DNA of 64,000 nt from Paracoccaceae bacterium (lineage in GTDB: Bacteria > Pseudomonadota > Alphaproteobacteria > Rhodobacterales > Rhodobacteraceae): assembly GCA_020425085.1 (NCBI GenBank), contig JAGQRW010000004.1, positions 434,001-498,000 of the forward strand. The letters are read 5' to 3'. A model generated the notes under the pieces. That model searched no databases. It was given only the letters and a program-made list of their open reading frames with translations, and was not told where the DNA came from. The stretch's first letter is position 1, and each line of letters starts with the position of its first letter. Positions 16,978-33,466 of the stretch are shown in pieces. The translations under genes and the position numbers were made by a program.

Positions 16978-17761
16978 CTGTTTTCTCCGTTTTCTTTGGT
17001 TTGCCGCCCTGCCCGTCAGCTCCCAGCCGGGCCTTGATGGCTAGAACCCCTTGTTTGCGTGCATCCGAGGTCAGGATTTGCATATAACGCTGGCGCCAGG
17101 CATTCATGTCGGCGCGACCGCTTTCAAGTTCGACCAGCAACTGTTTGGTGACGGCGGCGGCAGCAGCATCGGTTTTCGCCGCCAGATCGCTGAGTTCCTG
17201 TGCGTGATTTTCGATATCGGCCGATTTGACAACATCGCCAACCAGCCCGGCACGACGTGCCCCCTTGGCGGAAAACCGTTCGCCCAACACCATCAGGCGC
17301 GTCAGGGTTTCGGCACCGAAACGCGACCGCAAACCAGTGATGGCATCGGGTTTGTATAGCAGGCCAAGGCGGGTCGCCGGTACCTGAAAATAGGCGTCCT
17401 TGGTTGCGATGCGAAGATCGGTCGAAAGCGCCAGTTCAACCGCGGCCCCCATGCATGGCCCTTCGATCAACGCGGCTACCGGCAGGGGACAGGCGCGGAT
17501 CAGATCACCGATCTCAGCCGTCAGACGGTCATAATCCGCGTCCTTTTCAGTACCGGAAATGTCGTTGAGGTCGGCACCGGCACTAAAGGTGCCATCGGCG
17601 CCCCTTATGAATACGATTCGGGTTCTTGCAGACATCGGTGCCGTCAGTGCCGCCCTGAGATCATTCAGCAGCGTCACCGACAAAGCATTTCTGCGCCCGG
17701 CATTTTCCAGCGTCAGGAATAATGCCGCGCCGTTTTCCGACCGAACAACCCGACCGCCCAT
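16964..17761 (-). CDS. Enoyl-CoA hydratase/isomerase (crotonase) family protein
   Basis: 265 residues. The crotonase fold is shown by FSAGADLNDISG, the CoA and oxyanion region (ALIEGPCMGAAVELALSTDL) and ATRLGLLYKPDAITGLRSRF. It acts on a CoA thioester made by the ligase at the head of the operon. The exact reaction (hydratase, isomerase or lyase) cannot be told from these motifs. It overlaps the amidase stop by one base and the MaoC start by 14 bases. Confidence 0.83.
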   Translation of the reverse strand: MGGRVVRSENGAALFLTLENAGRRNALSVTLLNDLRAALTAPMSARTRIVFIRGADGTFSAGADLNDISGTEKDADYDRLTAEIGDLIRACPLPVAALIEGPCMGAAVELALSTDLRIATKDAYFQVPATRLGLLYKPDAITGLRSRFGAETLTRLMVLGERFSAKGARRAGLVGDVVKSADIENHAQELSDLAAKTDAAAAAVTKQLLVELESGRADMNAWRQRYMQILTSDARKQGVLAIKARLGADGQGGKPKKTEKTDAVQ

Positions 17762-19173
17762 CAGGATACCACCACATCTGCCGCCGCCGGCAGGCGCCAG
17801 CGGTTTTTCAGCGGGGTGTTGTCAAAGCCGATGGCATCCTCAATTTCTTCGCAAAGGTTCAGCAAGGCCTCATCCTGACCTTGTTTCATCACCACCTGCA
17901 AGCCCACCGGCAGATCTTCGACCAACCCGCAAGGAAGCGATGCCGCAGGCGTACCCGCAACATTGAACGGCGAGGTGAACGGAAACGCCCCCCAAAGTTC
18001 GCTTACCTTTCGCCCGTCGATTTCAAGCGGGCGCTGTCTGATCGGAAACGCCGGAACCGAATTGGTTGGCGTCAGGATGGCGTCAAAATCGCTGAGATAG
18101 GCATCAAATCTGGCGCGATATGCCAGCAGCAGTTTTTTCGCGCCTGCAACGTCCTGATCGCTCAGGGATTTAGCGGCCTCCAAAGTGACGCGCTCATAAT
18201 CGGTCAACTCGGCCAGATCCTGATCTAGATACTGGCCGCGTTCGCGCAACTCATCATAAAGCACCAGCGGGCCAAAAACGTCTTTCCAGCCGGCAACGGG
18301 AATATCCGCCTCGATCAACTGATGGCCGGTCTGGCCTAGCCGTTTCATCGTTTGGGCAAACATCGCCTGAACCCCGGCATCGACCGGGCGATCTTCCGGT
18401 GCCGCGCAGACGGCGATCTTCAGGCCGCGACCGCTGGCTTTGCGCGTAAAGGACCGTTCGGCCAGAATGTTCAGCAACCGCCTGGCATCATCGACCGAAT
18501 GCGCCAAGGGACCAGGGCAAACGAAATCATCCATAGCGCTGCCGCCGCCTTCATCCTTCACCAGCCCGTAAGACGGCTTGAAACCAAAAACGCCGCTGAA
18601 GGCCGCCGGAATGCGGATGGAGCCGCCGCCATCCGAGCCAAGCCCGACCGAAACCAGCCCCGCCGCCACAGACGAGGCCGCGCCACCGCTGGAGCCACCC
18701 GAGGTGCGCGTGGTATCCCAGGCGTTAGTGGTATCCGGGCCAAGCAGGTTGTCGGTGGTGGCGGATTGTCCGAATTCCGCCGTGTTGGTCTTGCCGGTCA
18801 TCACCGCGCCCGATGCCCGGATGCGTTTGGCGGTGCCGGTATCCTGCGTGCTGATATGATCGCGGTATTTCAGCGAGCCATAGGTGGTAAGGTAGCCCTT
18901 GACCTCGAACGCGTCCTTGATGGAAACCGGCACGCCGGCCAAGGGACCGGCGGTATGGTTGCGATAGGCGCGTTCCGCCGCCTCGGCCTGGGTTTTGGCA
19001 AGATCGCTCATGCGCGTGACATAAACGTTCATTTCGGAATTGAACGCATCCGCCCTGGCCTCGGCCTGTTTGTACACCTCAACCGGCGACAGGGACCTGT
19101 CGCGGTAGGCGGCAATCAGTTTGGCAATCGGCCAGTAAAGCGGGCTGTCATCTGCACGGGCGCTATCAGGCAT
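17761..19173 (-). CDS. Amidase signature family enzyme
   Basis: 470 residues. The Ser-cisSer-Lys triad is visible: Lys in VSIKDAFEVKG, Ser in TSGGSSGGAASSVAAG and nucleophile Ser in GSDGGGSIRIPAAFSG. It hydrolyses an amide, releasing ammonia or an amine and a carboxylate. The ATG at 19173 (MPDSARADDSPLYW) overlaps the SDR stop by 8 bases; longer upstream frames are not needed. An amide substrate imported by the Liv system is a reasonable guess. Confidence 0.87.
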   Translation of the reverse strand: MPDSARADDSPLYWPIAKLIAAYRDRSLSPVEVYKQAEARADAFNSEMNVYVTRMSDLAKTQAEAAERAYRNHTAGPLAGVPVSIKDAFEVKGYLTTYGSLKYRDHISTQDTGTAKRIRASGAVMTGKTNTAEFGQSATTDNLLGPDTTNAWDTTRTSGGSSGGAASSVAAGLVSVGLGSDGGGSIRIPAAFSGVFGFKPSYGLVKDEGGGSAMDDFVCPGPLAHSVDDARRLLNILAERSFTRKASGRGLKIAVCAAPEDRPVDAGVQAMFAQTMKRLGQTGHQLIEADIPVAGWKDVFGPLVLYDELRERGQYLDQDLAELTDYERVTLEAAKSLSDQDVAGAKKLLLAYRARFDAYLSDFDAILTPTNSVPAFPIRQRPLEIDGRKVSELWGAFPFTSPFNVAGTPAASLPCGLVEDLPVGLQVVMKQGQDEALLNLCEEIEDAIGFDNTPLKNRWRLPAAADVVVS

Positions 19174-19948: not shown

Positions 19949-20962
19949 TCATTTCTTGCCCGTCACGCGCGGGATCACTTCGTTGGCGAAGGTTTCCAGC
20001 CGTTGCCTGCGCCCGCCGGAATGCAAGGGGAATGTGATCCGGTCGATATCGCAATTATCGGTAATTTCCTTGATCCGCCCGACACAGTAATCCACATCGC
20101 CGGCAATCGCTACGGTCTGGGTCCACTCATCGGTCACAACGTCCTGGTGGCCAGCATGCAGCGACAGGTGTTTTTCGAAATGGTAGTTGGCCATCACGTC
20201 ATCCCAGAGCTTCTTGTACTTCTCCCAGCCCGGCGGAATTTCCTTCCACTCGGTGAAGGTCGCCGCCTGCGTCGCCGCCCAGGAGCGCACATCGTCAAGC
20301 GCATCTTTCTGGTTGTCACGAACGCTGGTGGTACACATGAAATCAATGTCGATCTCGGAACGGTCGCGCCCAGCGGCTTTTAGCCCCTCATAAATGTATT
20401 CCAACTGCCAGTTGATCAGATCAACATCGGCAGCCCCCATCAGGATGGCGCCATCAGCAACTTCGCCCGCCAGTTTCAGGATGCGCGGCTGTGTTACCGC
20501 CAGGTAGATCGGGATCTGCCGGTCTGCCATGGCAAAATGCATCTTGTGGCCGTCGATTTCCACTTCTTCGCCGCGGAACATGCCTTTCAGCGCCAGAATG
20601 CCTTCGCGCAGTTCGGAAATCTTCGAGGGGCGCTGCCCGATCGAATTCACCGCAACCCAACCGGCACCAAGGCCGACCATGGCGCGACCGTTGGAAAGTT
20701 CATCAACCGCCGCATGACCGCAGGCGGTGACCGAAGGGTGACGGGTTTTCAGATTGGTGACCGCCGTGCCGATCTGCAGTTTCTTGGTCGCCATCGCCGT
20801 CACGTTCATCGTGGCATAGATGTCTTTCATGCCAAGCTGGTGGTCGATATACCAGATATGTTCAAAACCCAGATCATCAATCAGCGTCGCCATCTCGGCA
20901 ACATTCGTCAGCGGCTCGCGCGGGCTTACCCCTCGTGAAATTCCAAATCTCGTAACCATCAT
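19949..20962 (-). CDS. Luciferase-like (LLM) oxidoreductase, possibly F420-dependent
   Basis: 337 residues, bacterial luciferase-like TIM barrel of the F420-dependent methylene-H4MPT reductase group. Seen are FEHIWYIDHQLGMKDIYATM, MATKKLQIGTAVTNLKTRHP, GRAMVGLGAGWVAVNSIG and ADGAILMGAADV. Members use either F420H2 or FMNH2; the motifs I can see do not decide. Because the divergent operon encodes complete F420 synthesis and an F420 reductase, F420 is the likelier cofactor. It overlaps the alpha/beta hydrolase by 4 bases. Confidence 0.85.
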   Translation of the reverse strand: MMVTRFGISRGVSPREPLTNVAEMATLIDDLGFEHIWYIDHQLGMKDIYATMNVTAMATKKLQIGTAVTNLKTRHPSVTACGHAAVDELSNGRAMVGLGAGWVAVNSIGQRPSKISELREGILALKGMFRGEEVEIDGHKMHFAMADRQIPIYLAVTQPRILKLAGEVADGAILMGAADVDLINWQLEYIYEGLKAAGRDRSEIDIDFMCTTSVRDNQKDALDDVRSWAATQAATFTEWKEIPPGWEKYKKLWDDVMANYHFEKHLSLHAGHQDVVTDEWTQTVAIAGDVDYCVGRIKEITDNCDIDRITFPLHSGGRRQRLETFANEVIPRVTGKK

Positions 20963-23560: not shown

Positions 23561-24211
23561 GTGGCAGATGCACCGATCACACCCAAAGGCATACAGACCC
23601 GCAAACGGCTGATCGCTGCCGCTCGCCGGGTTATGGCGCGGGATGGCTATTCGCAGATGCGCATGGCCGATGTCGCGGTCGAGGCCGGTCTGTCGCTGGG
23701 TGCCCTTTATCGCTATTTCGCCAACAAGGAAGACCTGTTCGCCACACTGGTCGGCGATATCCATCAGGATCTGTACAGTCAAAGCGTGGCCCGCGACGTG
23801 GATTTCGCCAAGGATCCGTATAACGCGCTTTATGCCAGCAATCTGGGCTACCTCACGCTTTATTCGGAAAATCGCGATGTTCTGAAAGTATTGATGGAGG
23901 TAATGACCGTCGATGCACAGTTCCTTGATATCTGGTGGAACATGCGCCAGCGCCATATCCGGCGGTTTCTGAATGCCATGAAACGCCACCACGGCAATAT
24001 CAACCTGGATGAGCGGCTGGCCCAGCGTCAATGCGAGGCTGTCGTCTCGATGGTCGAGATGAGCGCCTATGCCTGGTTTGCCCAGGACAAGCTGAACAGC
24101 GAAACCATCACCATCGACGAAGCGGCCAAGATTGCCACTGACATCTGGTATGACACATTTTTCAAGTCCGGCACCGGCGAAGTGGCGGTGATGCGAGAGG
24201 CGTCTCGATGA
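23561..24211 (+). CDS. TetR family transcriptional regulator
   Basis: 216 residues. The N-terminal DNA-binding domain covers about residues 9-55 (TRKRLIAAARRVMARDGYSQ, MADVAVEAGLSLGALYRYFA, NKEDLF). The C-terminal ligand domain is of unknown specificity; an acyl-CoA or acid from the divergent operon is a fair guess. GTG start with AGGAGG 7 bases upstream. Its last 117 bases are duplicated at 24577-24693. It overlaps the following remnant gene by ATGA, so it heads the F420 operon. Confidence 0.92.
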   Translation: MADAPITPKGIQTRKRLIAAARRVMARDGYSQMRMADVAVEAGLSLGALYRYFANKEDLFATLVGDIHQDLYSQSVARDVDFAKDPYNALYASNLGYLTLYSENRDVLKVLMEVMTVDAQFLDIWWNMRQRHIRRFLNAMKRHHGNINLDERLAQRQCEAVVSMVEMSAYAWFAQDKLNSETITIDEAAKIATDIWYDTFFKSGTGEVAVMREASR

Positions 24212-24693
24212 AAAGTGCGGATTTGGAAAGTGCCGGACAGATCAAAGCCATTGTCGCAGGCAATTCCCCGATTCCTGCTGTCTGCCCGCCGGTCATGATG
24301 TTGACAGATACCGGCTTGCCCACAAGCAATCAGATGGTTGTGAAGCACAGCATACGGCAGCGTTGCGGCACAATTATCGACGGGATTGATATTCAAGATG
24401 CAAACAGCCGACTTGAAGTGCCGGTGCCAAAGGTGAATACCCTGATGAAAACCTGTGCAAACCGCCAGCGGCTGACGCGGGATATACCGGCATTTGCTGA
24501 TCAGATCGGGGGTAAAGTCATGGTGTTTTCATCTGTCGAACCTGCCGACATTCAGGGATTACGGCGCATCGGACCGAATAGCAAAACCATCACCATCGTC
24601 GAAGCGGTCAGAATCGCTGCCGACAACTGGTACGACACATTTTTCAAAGCCAGCACCAACAATCCGGCGGTGCAGCAGGAGGCATCCCAGTGA
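24208..24693 (+). pseudogene. Mosaic remnant: cofD 3' end + cofE 5' start + tetR 3' end, still an open 161-codon frame
   Basis: The frame encodes 161 residues with no stop. Residues 31-102 match the C-terminus of CofD in this window at about 32 of 72 positions by hand count (GLPTSN vs GLPASN, VNTLM, FADQIGG vs FADRLGE). Bases 24298-24510 align without gaps to 29432-29644. The next segment, 24520-24576, aligns to the beginning of cofE at 29656-29712 (SSVE, RIGP vs RIKP). The last 117 bases (24577-24693) align gap-free to the tetR 3' end 24095-24211, about three quarters identical (KTITIVEA vs ETITIDEA, then YDTFFK). The start overlaps the tetR stop (ATGA) and the end overlaps the next start (GTGA). 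It has no complete domain. It may survive only as a translational coupler; a real small-protein role is not excluded. Confidence 0.75.
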
Positions 24694-26009
24694 AACACGA
24701 GAACATCAACAAGTCGGACCCGATCAAGGAACGGGTAACGCGGGTCTCCGAGCGTTACCAACACCTGCTGCAAGAGGCCGAAGACCCGCATGAATGGGCC
24801 TTTGCCTGGCGTACCGAGGTCAACCGGGGTGGTTTTCGTGCGGTGGATTTCCTGATGGATGTGGTGGTCGATACTGGGCGCTGCATCGGCTGTGCCGCCT
24901 GCGTCAGCATCTGCCCGGTCGATGTGTTCGATTATGTCGATGAAAAGCCCGTCGATACCCGCGAATCCGCCTGTGTCCACTGTGTTCTCTGCGCCGAAGC
25001 ATGTCCGGTGCTGCGCCCGGCGGACAACGATCTTTCCGAAAGTCTTGATCAGCATCAGCCTTCGAAAAATGAGGGTTATGGCCCTTATTCCTATGCCTGC
25101 TATTCTCGCACCACGGATCCCGAAATCCTGGAACATGCGCAGGATGGCGGCATGGTTTCCACACTGTTGCTGCACGGATTTGAAAAGGGCACGCTGAAAG
25201 GCGCGATACTTGGCGATGTCACCGAGGAAAACAAACAGATCGGCCGCCCGAAACTGGCCCGAAACCGTGAAGAAGTGCTGGCCTGCGCAGGCTCGCGCTA
25301 TACCTATTCGCCCAATACCCTCGCCTTGCAGCAAGCGGTGCGCGATCAGTGCGGCCCGCTGGCAGTGGTCGGGGTTCCCTGTCAGGTGGATGGGGTGCGT
25401 CTGCAACAGAATTCATCGGTCCGACTGGGGCCGGTCACCTGGTACAAGCGGAACATCACACTGGTTATCGGGCTGTTCTGCTCGGAATCCTTCACCCATG
25501 AAAGCATCCAGAAACTGGGCGAGATCCTTGGCGTCGCGCCCGAGCGGATCAAGAACATCAACATCAAGGGCAAGGTGGTGGTGACGCTGGATGACGGTGA
25601 AATCATGACGACCTCGTTGAAGAAATATCGTGAATGGGCGCGCCCCGCCTGCCTTTACTGCCTGGATTACGGTGCCGAAAATTCCGACATCGCGGCTGGC
25701 GGCATCGGCCTTGACGGCTGGACCTATACCGTGGTGCGCACCGAGGCCGGTCACCGCGCCTTTCAGGCGGCGATCAAGGATGGCTGGCTGGAAACCCGCC
25801 CGCTGGAGGATGAGCCGCGCGGCGAATTCCTGATGAAAAAGTTGTCAGCCGACAAGAAGCTGAACCGCCCGCTTCCCGCGCAGATGCCCACCCTGGCTGA
25901 ACGGCAGGCGCTGAACTATCTCGACCCGAAAACATTTTACACCAAAGGACCAGGCGCGCCGGTTAGCGAAGAAACAGCCGCCCCCAAAAAAGATGGAGGC
26001 GAAAAATGA
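24690..26009 (+). CDS. FrhB-family F420 oxidoreductase with N-terminal 2x[4Fe-4S] ferredoxin domain
   Basis: 439 residues. After about 55 residues come two ferredoxin motifs, CIGCAACVSICP (Cys 65, 68, 71, 75) and CVHCVLCAEACP (Cys 95, 98, 101, 105). The rest is the FrhB/FdhB domain that binds FAD and F420: AQDGGMVSTLLLHGFEKGTL, GSRYTYSPN, VVGVPCQVDGVRLQQ, GLFCSESFTHE, and RPACLYCLDYGAENSDIAAG near the C-terminus. It should move electrons between Fe-S clusters and F420. GTG start overlapping the remnant gene; its stop overlaps korA by 4 bases. I infer that it is the electron exit of KorAB, reducing F420. It could instead run the other way as an F420H2:ferredoxin reductase. Confidence 0.85.
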   Translation: MKHENINKSDPIKERVTRVSERYQHLLQEAEDPHEWAFAWRTEVNRGGFRAVDFLMDVVVDTGRCIGCAACVSICPVDVFDYVDEKPVDTRESACVHCVLCAEACPVLRPADNDLSESLDQHQPSKNEGYGPYSYACYSRTTDPEILEHAQDGGMVSTLLLHGFEKGTLKGAILGDVTEENKQIGRPKLARNREEVLACAGSRYTYSPNTLALQQAVRDQCGPLAVVGVPCQVDGVRLQQNSSVRLGPVTWYKRNITLVIGLFCSESFTHESIQKLGEILGVAPERIKNINIKGKVVVTLDDGEIMTTSLKKYREWARPACLYCLDYGAENSDIAAGGIGLDGWTYTVVRTEAGHRAFQAAIKDGWLETRPLEDEPRGEFLMKKLSADKKLNRPLPAQMPTLAERQALNYLDPKTFYTKGPGAPVSEETAAPKKDGGEK

Positions 26010-27784
26010 CCATTCCCGCAAAGATTGACGATCTGACCATCATGGTGGCCGGACAGGGCGGCGACGGCTCGTTGACCGTAATGAACGTGCTTAGCGAATT
26101 GTTCGGGCGGCGCGGTTATCACCTTTATAAATCCCGCAACGTGGCGTCGCGGATCAAGGGCGGTATCGCTGCGGCTCAGATGCGCGCCAGCATCGTTTCG
26201 CGTGGCTGTACCGGCGATCAGATCGACCTTGTCGTCGCCTTCGATCAGGAAGCCGTTACCAATGTTGGCCCGGATCTGCCGCCTGATGCCGTGGTGGTGT
26301 TCGACAGTTCCGACAAGCCGCTTGACCGCAGCACGCTGGCCGACACGATACGGGTTATCGAAATTCCGTTCGGGCGCTATGCCGTGCGCGACCTGCGCCG
26401 CGATCTTTTCAAGAACTCGATGAGTTTCGGCGTGATCTCGCAACTGATGAACGTCGATCAAGACGAGGCCGAGGATTGCCTGCGCCAGACATTGCGCCGA
26501 CTGCCGGAACGGGTGCTTTTGCCCAACATCGACAGTTTTGTCGATGGTCGCAAATTCGCCATGGACGATGCGATTGCGGCGGGCGGCTATCCCTGGCATC
26601 TGGAACGCGTGACCCGCGAAAAGCACCTGATGATCAATGGCAACGACGCGGTAGCCTTTGGTTTCATGGCGGCAGGCGGGCGTTTTTTCGCGGGCTACCC
26701 GATCACGCCTGCGACCGAAATCATGGAATGGCTGCAAAAACACCTGCCCGCCAAGGGCGGTGTGGCAATGCAGGCCGAGGACGAACTGGCCGCCGTCAAC
26801 ATCGCACTTGGTGCGGCAATGACCGGGGTTCGCACCATGACTGCAACCTCAAGCCCCGGTTTTTCGCTGATGGCCGAGGGTATCGGTCACGCTGGTTCTG
26901 CCGAAATTCCGCTGGTGATTGCCAACAGCCAGCGCGCCGGACCATCGACCGGCATGCCGACCAAGCCCGAGCAAAGCGATATCGACATGATGATTCACGG
27001 CGGCAACGGCGAGTATCCTCGGGTGGTTCTGGCGCCTGGCAATCCCGGTGACGGCTTTATTATCGGCGCTGCCGCAACCAATCTGGCGCAACGTATTCAG
27101 GGGCCGGTGATCATCGCCCTTGATCAGGCAGTGGCACAGGATGCGCGTTCGGTCACACCGTTTGATCTTGAAGCGGTTGAACCAGACGACGCCGCCCGCC
27201 TGACCGAGGAAGACCTGGCAGCGATGGAAACCTACCGGCGCTATGAACTGAACCCAAGCGGCGTTTCGCCCTGGGCGGTTCCGGGCACCAAAGGCGGCAT
27301 GAACCTTGTCACCGGCAACGAGCGCAACGAATGGGGGCTGGTCACCACGGTTCCCGCCAAACGCCGTGAAATGATGGACAAACGCGCTGCCAAGATTGAA
27401 CATGTCCGCGCTGACCTGCCGCGCGGTGTCACCGGTGGCGACCCCGCGGCACGGATCGGCATCGTCGGTTGCGGCATGCAGTCGGGTGTCATTGCCGAAA
27501 CTGCCGAGCGGCTGAACGCCGCGGGAACTGCCGTTCGCTATCTGCAAATTCGCACCCTCTGGCCGGTGCTGGAGGAGACCGCCGATTTCATCCGTGGCTG
27601 CGATCACGTCTATGTGGTCGAACAGAACAGCGAGGGTCAGTTGATGCACCTGTTGAACGGGCATGGGGCATTCGGCAACCTGCGCAGCCTGAAGAAATAT
27701 GACGGTGTGCCATTCCGCTGCGCCGATCTGGTTCAGCATATCATCAATGGCGAAGCCAAAGCCGTTCAGGGAGATGCAGCATGA
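26006..27784 (+). CDS. korA: 2-oxoacid:acceptor oxidoreductase, fused gamma-alpha subunit (KorA type)
   Basis: 592 residues. The N-terminal gamma domain (about 1-190) has MVAGQGGDGSLTVMNVLSEL and SRIKGGIAAAQMR. The alpha domain follows (FFAGYPITPATEIMEWLQ, MQAEDELAAVNIALGAAMTG, TATSSPGFSLMAEGIG, QRAGPSTGMPTKPEQSD). The C-terminal domain III holds GIVGCGMQSG and VVEQNSEGQL. With KorB it performs CoA-dependent oxidative decarboxylation of a 2-oxoacid, passing electrons to Fe-S. The lack of a separate ferredoxin gene and the ATGA link to the FrhB-like gene suggest a permanent complex. 2-Oxoglutarate is the family default; a branched-chain oxoacid is possible. Confidence 0.88.
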   Translation: MTIPAKIDDLTIMVAGQGGDGSLTVMNVLSELFGRRGYHLYKSRNVASRIKGGIAAAQMRASIVSRGCTGDQIDLVVAFDQEAVTNVGPDLPPDAVVVFDSSDKPLDRSTLADTIRVIEIPFGRYAVRDLRRDLFKNSMSFGVISQLMNVDQDEAEDCLRQTLRRLPERVLLPNIDSFVDGRKFAMDDAIAAGGYPWHLERVTREKHLMINGNDAVAFGFMAAGGRFFAGYPITPATEIMEWLQKHLPAKGGVAMQAEDELAAVNIALGAAMTGVRTMTATSSPGFSLMAEGIGHAGSAEIPLVIANSQRAGPSTGMPTKPEQSDIDMMIHGGNGEYPRVVLAPGNPGDGFIIGAAATNLAQRIQGPVIIALDQAVAQDARSVTPFDLEAVEPDDAARLTEEDLAAMETYRRYELNPSGVSPWAVPGTKGGMNLVTGNERNEWGLVTTVPAKRREMMDKRAAKIEHVRADLPRGVTGGDPAARIGIVGCGMQSGVIAETAERLNAAGTAVRYLQIRTLWPVLEETADFIRGCDHVYVVEQNSEGQLMHLLNGHGAFGNLRSLKKYDGVPFRCADLVQHIINGEAKAVQGDAA

Positions 27785-28641
27785 CAATCACCTTTACCCC
27801 GTCGCACCCGATCTGGTGTGCAGGCTGCGGCCATTTCGGCGTCAAGAATGCCATCGTCAACGCACTTGCGACGATCAATCAACCGGCGCATGAAACCATG
27901 GTTCTGGCCGGAATCGGCTGTTCCGGCACCATCCAGAACAACATTGATTCTTATGGCTACCATGCGCTGCACGGACGGGTTCTGCCGACTGCGCTGGGGG
28001 TGAAACTGGCCAATCCGGAACTTATGGTAATTGCCGCCGGAGGCGATGGCGACGGCTATGCCATCGGTGCCGGGCATCTGATGCATACCTTCAAACGCAA
28101 TCCAAGTATCGTCTATGTTCTGATGAACAACGGCGTTTACGGGCTGACCAAGGGCCAGCGATCGCCGACTGCACAGCAGATCGACCCGACCACCGAACGC
28201 AATATCGACGGCATCTCGCTTGGCCTTTCGATCCCCGGCGCGAGCTTTCTGGCGCGGGCCTATAGTGGCGCGGCGGACCAGTTGAACGCGGTGATGGTGG
28301 CAGCCCTGGAACACGCCGCCGCCGGTCGCGGTTTTGCCTTTGTCGAGGTAATGTCGCCCTGCGTGACCTATAACGACACCTATGCCGAATGGTCCGGCAA
28401 GGTTCATGACGTCACCACGGCGGACGGATATGACCCCAGCGACCGCATTGCCGCATTTTCCAGCGTTTATACGCTGGCCGAACAGGGCAAGATCCCGACC
28501 GGGCTTATCTATCAAAGCGATGCGCCAGCCTATGAATCCGCTTGGAAAAAGCCGGGTCTTGCCGGCCCTGCCAGGCTGGACGTTTCACCGGCCGGAAACA
28601 GAACACACTACGCCGACATCATGGAAAAATATGCATTCTGA
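27781..28641 (+). CDS. korB: 2-oxoacid:acceptor oxidoreductase beta subunit (KorB type)
   Basis: 286 residues, thiamine diphosphate subunit. Cys 13 and 16 (WCAGCGHFG), Cys 47 (GIGCSGTIQNN) and a late Cys (SPCVTYND) are the expected four ligands of its [4Fe-4S] cluster. The ThDP/Mg motif is GGDGDGYAIG at 87 onward, with LMNNGVYGLTKGQRSPTA. It overlaps korA by 4 bases. It ends 34 bases before cofD on the same strand, so energy-linked oxidation and F420 synthesis appear co-transcribed. Confidence 0.9.
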   Translation: MTITFTPSHPIWCAGCGHFGVKNAIVNALATINQPAHETMVLAGIGCSGTIQNNIDSYGYHALHGRVLPTALGVKLANPELMVIAAGGDGDGYAIGAGHLMHTFKRNPSIVYVLMNNGVYGLTKGQRSPTAQQIDPTTERNIDGISLGLSIPGASFLARAYSGAADQLNAVMVAALEHAAAGRGFAFVEVMSPCVTYNDTYAEWSGKVHDVTTADGYDPSDRIAAFSSVYTLAEQGKIPTGLIYQSDAPAYESAWKKPGLAGPARLDVSPAGNRTHYADIMEKYAF

Positions 28642-28675
28642 GGCAGAGGCCTTGGCCAGATAGGGTTTTCGGGAA

Positions 28676-29650
28676 ATGACTTCTGCCCCGAACAGAAAAA
28701 CGACTGCGCCCAGCGTTCTGGCGCTGAGCGGCGGTATCGGCGGGGCCAAGCTCGATCTAGGGCTTTATCACGTTCTGAAACCCTGGGAACTGGCGGTCGC
28801 AGCCAATACCGGTGATGATTTCGAGCATCTGGGCCTGACCATCTGCCCGGATCTCGATACCATCATGTACACCCTTTCGGGCACTTCTGATGAGGTCAGG
28901 GGCTGGGGTCGCCAAGGCGAAACCTGGGCCTGTCTATCGCAACTGAAGGAGATTGGCGGCAGTTCCTGGTTCGGGTTGGGCGACAAGGATCTGGCGGTAC
29001 ATCTTTATCGGACCGAACTTTTGCGACAGGGAAAACCCCTGGGCGAGATCACCGGTAATCTGTTTGCAAGCTTTGGCATCAAGGCGCAGGTGATGCCGAT
29101 GGCGGATCAGCCGGTTGGCACCATCGTTCACACCACCGATGGCCGCGACCTGCCGTTTCAGCGATATTTTGTCGAAGAACGCTGCGCGCCCGGGGTTCGC
29201 GGGTTTACCTATCAGGATGCCGAAACCGCGACACCCCCAACCGCATTGCTTGCGATGATCCGGGGCGGGAACCTGCGCGCCATCGTCATCTGCCCGTCAA
29301 ACCCGTTTGTCAGCATCAACCCGATCCTGTCGATCCCCGGCATCCGCGAGGCATTGGCCGCCAGCAAGACCCCGATTGTCGCCGTCAGTCCACTGATCGG
29401 CGGCGCCGCAGTAAAAGGCCCGCTGGCCAAGATGCTGGCGGAAATGGGCCTGCCCGCCAGCAACCGCTCGATTGCGGATCAGTACAAGGGGCTGTTGACG
29501 GGCATGATCATCGACAAGACCGATGGTGATGATGCAAACAACCAACTTGAGATGCCGGTGCTGGCGGTCAATACCCTGATGAACAGCCTTGAAGACCGCA
29601 AGCGGTTGGCACAGGATGTACTGGAATTCGCCGATCGACTGGGGGAGTAA
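28676..29650 (+). CDS. cofD: 2-phospho-L-lactate transferase (CofD), F420 biosynthesis
   Basis: 324 residues. Joins Fo to the phospholactyl (or phosphoenolpyruvyl) group from the GDP-activated precursor. Family motifs: VLALSGGIGGAKLDLGLYHV, VAANTGDDFEHLGLTICPDL, DTIMYTLSG, GLGDKDLAVHLYRTELL and CPSNPFVSINPILSIPGI. The length is normal. Its last third is the source-like relative of the remnant at 24208-24510. The TAA stop is followed within a few bases by the cofE reading frame. Confidence 0.93.
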   Translation: MTSAPNRKTTAPSVLALSGGIGGAKLDLGLYHVLKPWELAVAANTGDDFEHLGLTICPDLDTIMYTLSGTSDEVRGWGRQGETWACLSQLKEIGGSSWFGLGDKDLAVHLYRTELLRQGKPLGEITGNLFASFGIKAQVMPMADQPVGTIVHTTDGRDLPFQRYFVEERCAPGVRGFTYQDAETATPPTALLAMIRGGNLRAIVICPSNPFVSINPILSIPGIREALAASKTPIVAVSPLIGGAAVKGPLAKMLAEMGLPASNRSIADQYKGLLTGMIIDKTDGDDANNQLEMPVLAVNTLMNSLEDRKRLAQDVLEFADRLGE

Positions 29651-29655
29651 AAATT

Positions 29656-30399
29656 ATCGTTTCTTCGTCAGTCGAACTATTCGCCATAGCCGATTTTCCG
29701 CGCATCAAGCCCGGCGATGACTTGGCCTCCTCAATCGTGCGATTTCCGCTTCAGCAACACGATATCGTTGTTTTGGCACAGAAAGTCGTGTCAAAATCCG
29801 AAGACAGGATCGTTGATCTGGCCTCGGTCAAACCCGATGCCCGCGCCATCGAGGTTGCGGCAAAGACGGAAAAGGACCCGCGTCTTGTCCAACTGGTGCT
29901 GGACGAATCGTCTGAGATCATGCGGGCGCGCCCCGGTCTTTTGATCACTAGGCATCGGCTGGGTTTCATCATGGCCAATGCAGGGATTGATGCATCAAAT
30001 GTCGGGCGCTCGGGCGCGGTGATCCTGTTGCCGGTCAATCCCGACCAATCGGCACGCCGGATCGCCGGCGAACTGAAACGCCGTACCGGGCATGATATCG
30101 GGGTGATCATCACCGATAGCTGGGGCCGGCCCTGGCGTCTTGGCACCACCGGTTTCGCCATCGGCCAAAGTGGGCCGCCCGCCATCAGGGACATGCGCGG
30201 CATTGCCGATATGGATGGCAGGATTCTGGAAACCAGCGTGATCGGCACCGGCGATGAACTGGCGGCTGCGGCTTCTCTTTTGATGGGTCAGGCCGCCGAG
30301 GCAAAGCCTGCCATTGTCATCCGAGGTTTCGCATATGAAAACAGCAGCGATACTGCCGCAACCCTGATCCGCCCGGCCGAAGGAGATTTGTTTCAATGA
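29656..30399 (+). CDS. cofE: Coenzyme F420-0:gamma-glutamyl ligase (CofE), non-standard start codon
   Basis: About 247 residues. Adds gamma-linked glutamates to F420-0. Family motifs: RIKPGDDLASS near the N-terminus, DIVVLAQKVVSKSEDR, RHRLGFIMANAGIDASN, LPVNPDQSARRI and VIITDSWGRPWRLGT. The first in-frame ATG/GTG/TTG is TTG at 29722, but that would remove the conserved GDDLA segment. Homology begins near 29656, where only ATC (29656) or ATT (29653) is available, 8 or 5 bases after GGGGGA (29641-29646). The remnant copy has ATG at the equivalent of 29656. So initiation is probably at a rare AUU/AUC codon coupled to the cofD stop, unless a sequence error or -1 frameshift is involved. It overlaps cofC by 4 bases. 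Confidence 0.85.
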   Translation: MVSSSVELFAIADFPRIKPGDDLASSIVRFPLQQHDIVVLAQKVVSKSEDRIVDLASVKPDARAIEVAAKTEKDPRLVQLVLDESSEIMRARPGLLITRHRLGFIMANAGIDASNVGRSGAVILLPVNPDQSARRIAGELKRRTGHDIGVIITDSWGRPWRLGTTGFAIGQSGPPAIRDMRGIADMDGRILETSVIGTGDELAAAASLLMGQAAEAKPAIVIRGFAYENSSDTAATLIRPAEGDLFQ

Positions 30400-31082
30400 C
30401 CCCGAACCATTGGGCCGTGGTGCCGATCAAATCCTTTGGCAGCGCAAAATCGCGATTGTCCGCCCTGTTGACCGGAAAACAGCGCGAGGTTTTTTCCCAG
30501 GCGATGCTGTTTGATGTGCTGAATGCGCTGTCCAAGGCCAGCCGGCTTGGCGGCGTCATGGTGGTGACGAATGAACCCGGTGCAATCAGCCTGTCGCAGC
30601 AATTCGGATTTCAGGTGCTGGCGGACAAATCCACCAGCGGCCCGACAGCCGCGATCACGGCAGCGGTGGCAGAATTGAAAACCCACGGTTGTGACGGCGT
30701 TCTGGCGTTGATGGGAGATTTGCCGCTGATCACCAGCGCCGATATCGAACGCCTGCTGACCGCCCATCAAGGCGATTGCGCGGTGACTCTGGCGCCGTCC
30801 TCAAACCGTCTTGGCACCAATGCCGCGTTTTGCACGCCGCCGGGGATCATCCCGCTCACCTTCAACGGTCGCGGTTTGGCCGATCATCTGGCGGCAGCAA
30901 GGCTGGCCGGGGCAGATACCCATGTGCTTGATATGCCTTCGGTTGCGCTTGATCTTGATCAGCCCGAGGATATCGCGTCACTGCTGGACACCCGGTCAGA
31001 TTGCAAGACCCGCGCCTTCATCCTTGAACTTGTCAATAGCGGTCAGATTCCGCGTATTCCGCAACACCAGAAAACCGGATAG
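30396..31082 (+). CDS. cofC: 2-phospho-L-lactate guanylyltransferase (CofC)
   Basis: 228 residues. Makes the GDP-activated three-carbon phosphoacid for CofD. The nucleotidyltransferase fold shows WAVVPIKSFGSAKSRLSALL at the start, VVTNEPGA, ALMGDLPLITSADIERLL, and ALDLDQPEDIASLL near the end, all typical of CofC/FbiD. The natural substrate (phospholactate, phosphoenolpyruvate or 3-phosphoglycerate) cannot be read from motifs. ATGA overlap with cofE; 8 bases before the fbiC-like gene. Confidence 0.92.
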   Translation: MTPNHWAVVPIKSFGSAKSRLSALLTGKQREVFSQAMLFDVLNALSKASRLGGVMVVTNEPGAISLSQQFGFQVLADKSTSGPTAAITAAVAELKTHGCDGVLALMGDLPLITSADIERLLTAHQGDCAVTLAPSSNRLGTNAAFCTPPGIIPLTFNGRGLADHLAAARLAGADTHVLDMPSVALDLDQPEDIASLLDTRSDCKTRAFILELVNSGQIPRIPQHQKTG

Positions 31083-31090
31083 GGAACCCC

Positions 31091-33466
31091 ATGAAAGACT
31101 TTCAACTGACTTCATCCCTGTCCTCTGGCCGCCTTGGCGGCGAAGATGCGCTTGGCCTGATCGACGCCAAGGGCGCTGAACTTGACGATCTGATACAAGT
31201 CGCTGCCAGCTTGCGCGATCAAGGTCACGGTGATTGCATCAGCTATTCGCGCAATGTGTTCGTGCCGTTAACCAAGCTCTGCCGCGATGTCTGCCATTAC
31301 TGCACATTTTCGCGCGTTTCCCCGTCTGCCGGGGCCGCCTATCTTTCACCCGACGAGGTGCTGGAGATCGCCCGTCAGGGGGCGCAGCAGGACTGCAAGG
31401 AACTGCTGTTCACCCTCGGCGACAAACCCGAACTCCGCTATCAGGCGGCGCGTGACGAACTGGCCAAACTGGGCCATGCAACGACGATTTCCTATCTGGT
31501 CGAGGTTGCCGGGCTGGTGCAGCGCGAAACCGGGTTGCTGGTGCATGTCAATCCCGGCGTCGCCACCGAGGCGGAAATGGCCGCGCTCCGGCAGGTCTCG
31601 GTTTCCCAAGGCATGATGCTGGAAAGCCTGTCCGAACGGCTGTGCGCCAAGGGCGGGCCGCATTTTGGTTCGCCCGACAAATACCCCGCCGCGCGGCTTG
31701 AGGTGCTGGAGGCCGCCGGACGGCTGAAAATCCCGTTCACCAGCGGCCTTCTGATCGGCATCGGCGAAACCCGCGCCGAACGGATCGAGGCGCTGCTGGC
31801 CTTGCGCGATCTGAACGACCGCCACGGCCATATCCAGGAACTGATCATCCAGAATTTCAAGCCCAAGGCGAATACGCGGATGGCCAACCATCCCGCACCA
31901 GACGCCGAAGAACTGATCTGGACCATAGCCATCACGCGCCTGATGTTCGGCGAGGCGATGAATATCCAGGCACCGCCAAATCTGTTGCCGGGCAATCCCG
32001 GCCGCATTCTGAACGCCGGCATCAATGACTGGGGCGGCGTTTCGGCGGTGACGCCGGATTTCGTCAACCCCGAGGCACCCTGGCCGCATCTGGATCAGCT
32101 TGCCCTTGATACCGCGAAATCGGGCAAGATTCTTGTCGAACGTCTGGCCGTCTATCCGCCTTATGTTCTGGATGCAAACACCTGGCAGGACAAGAAATGC
32201 GCCGGATTTGTGCGGGCCAACAGCGACAGCGAGGGCATGGCGCGGACCGGGTCATGGTATTCCGGCAAGTTGCTTGAAGGTGAATTACCGCTTGCGGAAT
32301 TCAGCGCCAACACTGGCGGCTGGCTATACCGCCAGCGCCCGGTGTCGCAAATTCTTGCCAAGGCCGAAACCGGTCGATTGCTGAATAATGATGAGGTTTC
32401 CGCACTGCTGACCGCCCGCGGCAGCGATGTGAAAACCATCTGCAGCGCCGCTGATGATTTCCGAAGAACCATCGCGGGCGATGTCATCACCTATGTGGTT
32501 AATCGCAACATCAACTACACCAATATCTGCAACTATCGCTGCACCTTCTGCGCGTTTTCCAAGGGCAAGACGCATGAGGATCTGCGCGGCAAGCCATATC
32601 TTCACGGCGCCAATGCCATTGTCGATATGGCATCCGAAGGTGTCAACAAGGGCGCGACCGAGGTTTGTCTGCAGGGCGGCATCCACCCAGATTACACCGG
32701 CGATACTTATCTGGGCCATTGCGGCGCTATCAAGCGGGCCTATCCAGATCTGCATATCCACGCCTTTTCGCCACTGGAAATCTGGCACGGGGCGCAATCC
32801 AACAAGGTTTCGGTGCGCGAATTTCTGCAGCAGTTAAAGGCGGTAGGTCTGGGTTCACTTCCCGGCACCGCAGCCGAAATTCTGGATGATGAGGTTCGGG
32901 CGGTGATCTGCCCCGATAAGCTTGATACCGAAACCTGGCTTCAGATCGTGAAAACCGCGCACGAGATTGGTATTCCGACCACCGCGACCATCATGTTTGG
33001 TCATGTGGAAAAAATCCACCATGTCGCCGGGCATCTGCTGAAACTGCGTGATCTGCAAATCGAAACCGGCGGGTTTACCGAACTGGTGCCGCTACCGTTC
33101 GTGCATATGGAATCGCCGATGGCCCTGAAGGGGCAGTCGCGGCGCGGCCCAACCTTTCGCGAAGCACTTTTGGTACATGCAGCGGCTCGTATCACGCTTT
33201 ACCCGCATTTCAGGAATATCCAGACCTCATGGACCAAAATGGGAGTTGAAGGCGCGCATGAATGCCTGAATGCCGGGGCCAATGATCTTGGCGGCACATT
33301 GATGAGCGAAAGCATATCGCGGGCAGCCGGGGCGGAACATGGTCAGGAATTCACGCCCGACAATATCATCCGTTTCATCGAAGGCATGGGCCGGATCGCA
33401 CAGCAGCGCAACACCCTATATGGCAGGATCGGTGGTGACGGGCTGACATCGGCGGCAGCGGAATAA
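31091..33466 (+). CDS. fbiC: Bifunctional Fo synthase (CofG-CofH fusion, FbiC type)
   Basis: 791 residues holding two radical SAM enzymes. The CofG half has Cys 64, 68 and 71 (CRDVCHYC), the CofH half Cys 480, 484 and 487 (CNYRCTFC). Together they make the deazaflavin Fo from tyrosine and 5-amino-6-ribitylaminouracil. Domain order and length equal actinobacterial FbiC. Other motifs are FTLGDKPELRYQAAR, NFKPKANTRMANHPAPD, CLQGGIHPDYTGDTYLG and TATIMFGHVEKIHHVAGHL. Last gene of the operon, facing a convergent LysR gene 33 bases later. Confidence 0.95.
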   Translation: MKDFQLTSSLSSGRLGGEDALGLIDAKGAELDDLIQVAASLRDQGHGDCISYSRNVFVPLTKLCRDVCHYCTFSRVSPSAGAAYLSPDEVLEIARQGAQQDCKELLFTLGDKPELRYQAARDELAKLGHATTISYLVEVAGLVQRETGLLVHVNPGVATEAEMAALRQVSVSQGMMLESLSERLCAKGGPHFGSPDKYPAARLEVLEAAGRLKIPFTSGLLIGIGETRAERIEALLALRDLNDRHGHIQELIIQNFKPKANTRMANHPAPDAEELIWTIAITRLMFGEAMNIQAPPNLLPGNPGRILNAGINDWGGVSAVTPDFVNPEAPWPHLDQLALDTAKSGKILVERLAVYPPYVLDANTWQDKKCAGFVRANSDSEGMARTGSWYSGKLLEGELPLAEFSANTGGWLYRQRPVSQILAKAETGRLLNNDEVSALLTARGSDVKTICSAADDFRRTIAGDVITYVVNRNINYTNICNYRCTFCAFSKGKTHEDLRGKPYLHGANAIVDMASEGVNKGATEVCLQGGIHPDYTGDTYLGHCGAIKRAYPDLHIHAFSPLEIWHGAQSNKVSVREFLQQLKAVGLGSLPGTAAEILDDEVRAVICPDKLDTETWLQIVKTAHEIGIPTTATIMFGHVEKIHHVAGHLLKLRDLQIETGGFTELVPLPFVHMESPMALKGQSRRGPTFREALLVHAAARITLYPHFRNIQTSWTKMGVEGAHECLNAGANDLGGTLMSESISRAAGAEHGQEFTPDNIIRFIEGMGRIAQQRNTLYGRIGGDGLTSAAAE

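Follow-up and report, generated by a model that had tools for sequence, protein, structure and literature searches.

Positions 24690-33466 of a 64,000-nucleotide stretch of a Paracoccaceae bacterium genome (GCA_020425085.1, contig JAGQRW010000004.1, positions 434,001 to 498,000; hereafter the window) hold seven plus-strand genes, frhB-like, korA, korB, cofD, cofE, cofC and cofGH, in which an FrhB-type F420-reductase subunit and the two subunits of a 2-oxoacid oxidoreductase (together, the trio) are encoded with enzymes that make the cofactor F420. An earlier note made from the letters alone had described this gene order, the overlaps, the common strand and an FrhB with two [4Fe-4S] motifs of its own, and we recovered the same coordinates and families, each of the latter confirmed by Pfam and NCBIfam profile scans. 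Neighbouring genes overlap by 4 bases at frhB/korA (ATGA), korA/korB (ATGA) and cofE/cofC, and the remaining gaps measure 34 bases (korB-cofD), at most 71 bases (cofD-cofE) and 8 bases (cofC-cofGH); the cluster is presumably expressed as a single transcript, and promoter and terminator scans of the region gave nothing better than chance.

The FrhB-type subunit (24690-26009, GTG start, 439 residues) was assigned by Pfam, alignment and fold match. It comprises an N-terminal extension (residues ~1-56), a ferredoxin domain for two [4Fe-4S] clusters (C65 C68 C71 C75 and C95 C98 C101 C105), an FrhB domain (131-391) and a C-terminal extension, and exceeds the Pfam cut-offs of FrhB_FdhB_N (66.5 bits, cut-off 22), FrhB_FdhB_C (118.4 bits, cut-off 23.3) and Fer4. 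The FrhB domain carries one further [4Fe-4S] (C231 C264 C321 C324) and loops for flavin adenine dinucleotide (FAD): in Frh the loops around FAD lie at 23-30, 71-77 and 131-138 (PMC3930138), and the motifs AQDGG, AGSRYTYSPN and GLFCSESF align with these three. All 12 cluster cysteines, eight in the ferredoxin domain and four in the FrhB domain, are invariant in a 28-row alignment of the window protein with those of 27 related loci described below (the partial L039 was excluded); the latter four are also kept when the window protein is aligned with three haloarchaeal FrhBs and two of known structure (six rows). In an AlphaFold2 model built from 28 sequences and compared by Foldseek, the predicted fold most resembles 8riu_B, the subunit through which an archaeal CO dehydrogenase reduces F420 (E 2.5e-26), followed by 8rja_E of the F420-reducing formylmethanofuran dehydrogenase (Fwd) and then by Frh and Fsr; the modelled match to HCAR (5dqr) is weaker (E 1.5e-16), and those to formate dehydrogenase and Elp chains are weaker yet. 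Profile scores likewise do not make HCAR the nearest relative, as it reaches 57.7 bits against 120-180 bits for the Frh, Fwd, CO dehydrogenase and Fsr chains, all of them F420-linked.

The korA gene (26006-27784) encodes a fused gamma-alpha subunit of the 2-oxoacid:acceptor oxidoreductases (OAFO_sf 548.7 bits, cut-off 482.75), and korB (27781-28641) a beta subunit, assigned by Pfam, with a thiamine diphosphate domain and one [4Fe-4S] (C13 C16 C47 C194). KorB exceeds the Pfam cut-offs of TPP_enzyme_C and PFO_beta_C and scores 227 bits with the NCBIfam model PorB_KorB, below its cut-off of 261.9; its four cysteines are invariant in 27 rows (the window and 26 loci, as L024 has no korB and L033 is partial). 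The best match of both subunits among solved structures was 6n2n (KorA 313 bits, KorB 172 bits), which we take to be the 2-oxoglutarate:ferredoxin oxidoreductase of Magnetococcus, presumably with ferredoxin as its acceptor and, to our knowledge, without an FrhB partner. KorA T234, the threonine of YPITP, and the carboxylate-binding R310 are invariant in 27 rows and were matched by hand on the alignment to T257 and R344 of StOFOR (PMC5020499). At the far end of the substrate pocket, Asn438 stands opposite Asp468 of StOFOR1, and a Thr opposite Lys49 of the StOFOR beta subunit (hand count; PMC5020499); these residues are compatible with 2-oxoglutarate as substrate, which they do not demonstrate.

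The biosynthetic part consists of cofD (28676-29650; 2-phospho-L-lactate transferase, 286.5 bits, cut-off 257.45), cofE (29722-30399; F420-0:glutamate ligase, 250.5 bits, cut-off 180.65), cofC (30396-31082; guanylyltransferase, 146.5 bits, cut-off 105) and cofGH (31091-33466), a fusion (FbiC) for FO synthase that scores 1068.1 bits (cut-off 1018) and is also above the cut-offs of the CofG and CofH models. As called, cofE begins with TTG, and its frame is open upstream of the first ATG, GTG or TTG (29650-29722), with a translation that by eye resembles a CofE N terminus; the true start probably lies upstream near 29653 and may be an ATT or ATC codon.

Linkage of FrhB to korA

Searches of the order, class and phylum of the window's genome returned an FrhB match in that genome only (1/121, 1/385 and 1/398, at most about four candidates per genome being scored in the class and phylum samples), which suggested a single-genome oddity until a genome scan with six FrhB peptide patterns overturned this view. 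The scan yielded 28 related loci, 52-91% identical, under unchecked metagenome-bin titles that name Alpha- and Gammaproteobacteria, other Proteobacteria, Acidimicrobiia, other Actinobacteria, Thermoleophilia, Chloroflexi, Armatimonadetes, Dadabacteria and Myxococcota; since the patterns are specific to this FrhB subfamily, the loci are not a sample of all FrhBs. In every one of the 28, korA follows FrhB directly on the same strand, and korB is present in 27, the contig of L024 stopping inside korA. The 4-base FrhB/korA overlap recurs in 16 loci, with starts chosen by us, and at least one cof gene is found in 15 (L012-L015, L017, L019, L022, L025, L026, L028, L030-L032, L035 and L039). The earlier note had named linkage in this genome only as one outcome that would undo its proposal, and these counts exclude that outcome.

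As a control we searched 247 genomes of the class of L016 with an FrhB profile, whereby 132 matched at E ≤1e-60, nine of them at 768-832 bits and the others at no more than 264 bits. The high-scoring FrhBs lie beside korA in 9/9 cases (six of these nine genomes were already among the 28), whereas KorAB adjoins the lower-scoring ones in only one of 20 fetched neighbourhoods (L068), and there it is a different KorAB. Adjacency in 28/28 loci and in 9/9 profile matches thus places the linkage of FrhB and korA beyond chance.

The lower-scoring proteins, which also have a ferredoxin domain, constitute a second FrhB type, present in 123 of the 247 genomes (loci L049-L069). Neither KorA nor KorB turned up in 19 of the 20 neighbourhoods, which extend ~6 kb on each side, and ten nearby reading frames scanned with Pfam contained no shared oxidoreductase partner; this type is a candidate stand-alone ferredoxin:F420 oxidoreductase. 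The two types differ in their N termini: the motif W...WR.E.N.GGF occurs in 31/31 core FrhBs (the window, 27 loci and three new sequences) and in 0/21 of the second type (the lower-scoring group of the same class, from the 20 neighbourhoods and one short locus). A stricter first pattern had matched only 23 of the 31, and because the relaxed motif was drawn from invariant columns of the core alignment its full recovery there is partly by construction, which its absence from the second type is not. A quick tree likewise parts core from second-type FrhBs on a starred branch, the very long row L011 being drawn beside the core with unsure placement. In L068 (2977-7066) a KorAB with 29% and 37% identity to that of the window directly precedes a second-type FrhB, apparently an independent pairing of the two modules. 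The grouping count of the KorA tree is disturbed by a single outlier, the IorA L031_b, and the six other non-core KorAs cluster once it is set aside; locus L031 itself has an indolepyruvate oxidoreductase alpha subunit gene (17221-19068, IorA above cut-off) after its FrhB-KorAB-cof cluster.

F420 reductases in genomes with FrhB-KorAB

CofD is encoded in 28 of the 29 genomes with FrhB-KorAB, the window's own included (23 above cut-off), compared with 59 of 385 sampled genomes of its class, a base rate that properly varies by phylum; by the latter count F420 genes are less rare in this class than the earlier note had stated for proteobacteria. The window's genome has one FrhB, no match to Fno, the NADPH:F420 reductase, in a TIGR01915 search and no Fgd, the Fgd model (TIGR03554, cut-off 420) giving two weak matches of at most 53 bits, including the LLM gene of the window described below. 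The trio is therefore the only candidate F420 reductase in this genome among the types sought.

Across the genomes, Fno is above cut-off in 2 of the 29 with FrhB-KorAB, whereas it is so in 46 of the 58 remaining class genomes that have CofD (Fisher p 4e-11); for the alphaproteobacterial members of the 29, assigned by record title or nearness to L012, the count is 0/8 (p 2e-5); as the 29 span phyla, are not independent and include many incomplete bins, these p-values overstate the strength of the difference. Neither Fno (at least 147 bits) nor Fgd (at least 176 bits) was found in 17 of the 29; besides the three genomes with Fno at or above that score, two have Fno matches of 57-60 bits. Among the 58 comparison genomes, 48 have an Fno match, 46 of these above cut-off, and the 48 Fno genes lie within 5 kb of cofD in 43 cases and on another contig in five; Fno appears to be the usual F420 reductase of the class. 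Scarce where FrhB-KorAB occurs and common in the other F420 makers of the class, Fno leaves a place in which we read the trio as standing; one genome (G865, locus L039) has both.

A candidate 2-oxoacid:F420 oxidoreductase

Taken together, these data make it probable that KorA, KorB and the FrhB-type protein are subunits of a single 2-oxoacid:F420 oxidoreductase, one that would stand in for Fno in many of these bacteria. CoA-dependent decarboxylation of 2-oxoacids on thiamine diphosphate is the known chemistry of the KorAB family, and KorAB would perform it here; electrons would exit singly via the lone [4Fe-4S] of KorB, the two clusters of the FrhB ferredoxin domain would substitute for free ferredoxin, and the path would continue through the [4Fe-4S] of the FrhB domain to FAD and, as hydride, to F420, whose synthesis would fall to the cof genes of this operon. 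The resulting F420H2 would feed LLM-type and perhaps other F420-dependent enzymes, for example the product of a divergently encoded neighbour. Gene order, conservation, the cluster and FAD motifs, co-occurrence with CofD and the scarcity of Fno are observed, whereas we infer the assembly of the three proteins, the route of the electrons, the role of F420 as acceptor, the consumer of F420H2 and the 2-oxoacid; the genomic tests agree with, and so support, the earlier note's reading that FrhB-KorAB oxidises a 2-oxoacid and reduces F420. It is likely, if somewhat less so than the enzyme itself, that KorAB-FrhB, spread across several phyla, is the sole F420 reductase of many of these bacteria, a mobile unit that carries its own cofactor genes and replaces Fno, such that low-potential electrons of 2-oxoacids rather than NADPH or a sugar phosphate charge F420.

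The design has precedents in archaea, where CO dehydrogenase and formylmethanofuran dehydrogenase reduce F420 (PMC11493965). In Ca. Ethanoperedens thermophilum the F420-reducing CO dehydrogenase (8RIU) has a zeta subunit that, like the FrhB of the trio, combines a ferredoxin domain for two [4Fe-4S] with an F420-reductase domain holding one [4Fe-4S] and FAD, a module attached here to an enzyme normally thought to be ferredoxin-linked (PMC11493965); this system differs from the trio in that its catalytic part is CO dehydrogenase, in an anaerobic archaeon, with 27% identity over the fold alignment. The F420-reducing formylmethanofuran dehydrogenase (8RJA) has the same module on Fwd as its catalytic part. 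An FrhB paired with a 2-oxoacid oxidoreductase is also on record, as ANME-1 FrhB6 lies near pyruvate:ferredoxin oxidoreductase (PFOR) genes and was proposed to reduce F420 (PMC9012536), a likeness by description rather than by sequence to a system that, unlike the present one, is archaeal, comes with PFOR genes and is a prediction only. Comparative evidence that the trio is a bacterial version of this known modular design is strong at the level of sequence, and given the ANME-1 proposal the trio would be new in bacteria but not in principle. Fno and Fgd are the sources of F420H2 given for bacteria, Alphaproteobacteria included (PMC8498797); they differ from the trio in donor (NADPH or glucose-6-phosphate) and, by the classes of that review, in having unrelated folds. 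The consulted text of this review contains no mention of FrhB, oxoacid, oxoglutarate or ketoglutarate, and our search of the open-access literature, outside which lie preprints and most subscription journals, found no description of a bacterial 2-oxoacid:F420 oxidoreductase.

Several observations count against this interpretation. The FrhB-type protein stays under the NCBIfam equivalog cut-offs (frhB 191 versus 331.5 bits, FpoF 111 versus 475), and its model is middling (mean predicted local distance difference test score 70.3), with low values in the ferredoxin domain. HCAR, a relative that shares the fold and, we assume, does not use F420, is not outscored by the Elp chain or by the beta chains of F420-linked formate dehydrogenases (42-55 bits), so that bit scores alone leave the acceptor undecided. 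No cof genes were found in 13 of the 28 loci, some of them truncated by contig ends, and one FrhB-KorAB genome (G864) yielded no CofD, with Fno there above cut-off. Other F420 reductases do occur beside the trio: Fno reaches at least 147 bits in three of the 29 genomes and exceeds its cut-off of 149.8 in two of them, Fgd is above cut-off in one genome and at 400 bits in another, and seven have Fgd-like matches of 176-200 bits. Conversely, the trio was seen in none of the 58 other CofD-positive class genomes (FrhB search, at most about four candidates per genome, apparently the same sample). FrhB and KorA co-diverge (Mantel r 0.886), but other genes of the cluster do so equally, and this signal, not being specific, was dropped as evidence. 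Finally, both archaeal enzymes reduce ferredoxin too, eightfold more slowly than F420 (PMC11493965).

One alternative is that FrhB is a separate ferredoxin:F420 oxidoreductase, KorAB reducing free ferredoxin and the genes being adjacent as they act in series. KorAB enzymes lacking a ferredoxin domain do generally use free ferredoxin (PMC5020499), and in the class of L016 many FrhBs with a ferredoxin domain occur away from KorAB (19/20 neighbourhoods). The KorAB-linked FrhBs, however, branch separately from the second type and bear extensions at both termini that are absent from it (the N-terminal motif count above, 31/31 versus 0/21), as expected of a docking segment; moreover, the adjacency to korA is without exception, and in CO dehydrogenase a subunit of this architecture is tightly bound (PMC11493965). 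We therefore regard two enzymes in series as unlikely.

An electron partner other than F420, as in the HCAR branch, is less plausible still: HCAR has the same fold and scores slightly above the formate dehydrogenase beta chains, but the F420-linked Frh, Fwd, CO dehydrogenase and Fsr chains score far higher, CofD is missed in only one of 29 genomes, cof genes are linked in over half of the loci (15/28), and Fno is scarce where FrhB-KorAB occurs. Least probable of all, and barely worth entertaining, is the reverse direction, in which F420H2 would drive the reductive carboxylation of an acyl-CoA; 2-oxoacid oxidoreductases are in principle reversible, yet F420 at about -340 mV should be too weak a donor for a couple near -500 mV, as argued for pyruvate (PMC9012536). 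If the single 2-oxoacid:F420 enzyme is correct, it gives FrhB-KorAB genomes a specific and thermodynamically strong candidate source of F420H2, ties that cofactor to 2-oxoacid metabolism, extends to bacteria the archaeal pattern of an FrhB module on otherwise ferredoxin-linked enzymes and offers a three-gene system for F420H2 recycling in biocatalysis that needs neither NADPH nor glucose-6-phosphate.

Physiological context and neighbouring genes

A general role of the trio in replacing 2-oxoglutarate dehydrogenase (OGDH) was rejected, as OGDH E1 is above cut-off in 21 of the 29 FrhB-KorAB genomes, that of the window among them, and this retention indicates that the trio is not merely the enzyme of the tricarboxylic acid (TCA) cycle. 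The window's genome also encodes three further genes of the oxidoreductase family and no second FrhB, and with OGDH kept as well the trio looks like a dedicated F420 source rather than a TCA step. Possible substrates are 2-oxoglutarate or a broad range of 2-oxoacids. In the UBA5794 actinobacterial genomes studied elsewhere, none had 2-oxoglutarate dehydrogenase and most had korAB (PMC12008989).

A candidate user of F420H2 is the LLM-class oxidoreductase encoded at 19949-20962 on the minus strand, in a divergent operon (Pfam Bac_luciferase; the best NCBIfam models below cut-offs). The LLM superfamily includes F420-dependent enzymes, and this protein shares 98% identity with its counterpart in L012, compared with 79% for the next two genes and 78-91% for the FrhB-KorAB-cof genes. 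The divergent operon further encodes an acyl-CoA synthetase and a hydrolase (names by eye), SDR, amidase, enoyl-CoA hydratase and MaoC proteins and a branched-chain-type transporter, a content that suggests that F420H2 may serve a catabolic route via the LLM enzyme. When reading frames neighbouring the related loci were scanned (125 of 138 crudely called frames, 13 doubtful or known ones being dropped by hand and shadow frames remaining), LLM was the commonest Pfam family with six members, followed by acyl-CoA dehydrogenase with five, and amidases occurred in two loci titled Gammaproteobacteria.

Upstream of frhB lie a TetR-like regulator gene (23561-24211, plus strand; name by eye, 87% identity at the equivalent place in L012) and a 161-residue reading frame (24208-24693, plus strand). 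Since both precede frhB with overlaps, the presumed operon extends to nine reading frames; the run of genes proposed by the earlier note stands, whereas its start moves to the TetR-like gene at 23561. The 161-residue frame is chimeric, with 73% DNA identity to cofD over 146 bp and 77% to tetR over 111 bp, has a counterpart in L012 at 62% and gave no match in a Pfam scan. It is apparently a relic in which the 3' end of cofD is joined to that of tetR, and could be either a remnant of rearrangement or a new small protein.

A plasmid search returned 30 FrhB records, all distant (below 60% identity), of which five were opened. FrhB follows a rhodanese-domain gene in the haloarchaeal L008, lies near bacteriochlorophyll genes in L009 and follows a polysaccharide pyruvyl transferase gene in L011. 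On two haloarchaeal plasmids (L007, 5404-7128; L010, 4683-6137) an FrhB with ferredoxin motifs lies directly after a gene annotated as ferredoxin-nitrite reductase, a pairing that suggests an F420H2-dependent nitrite reductase.

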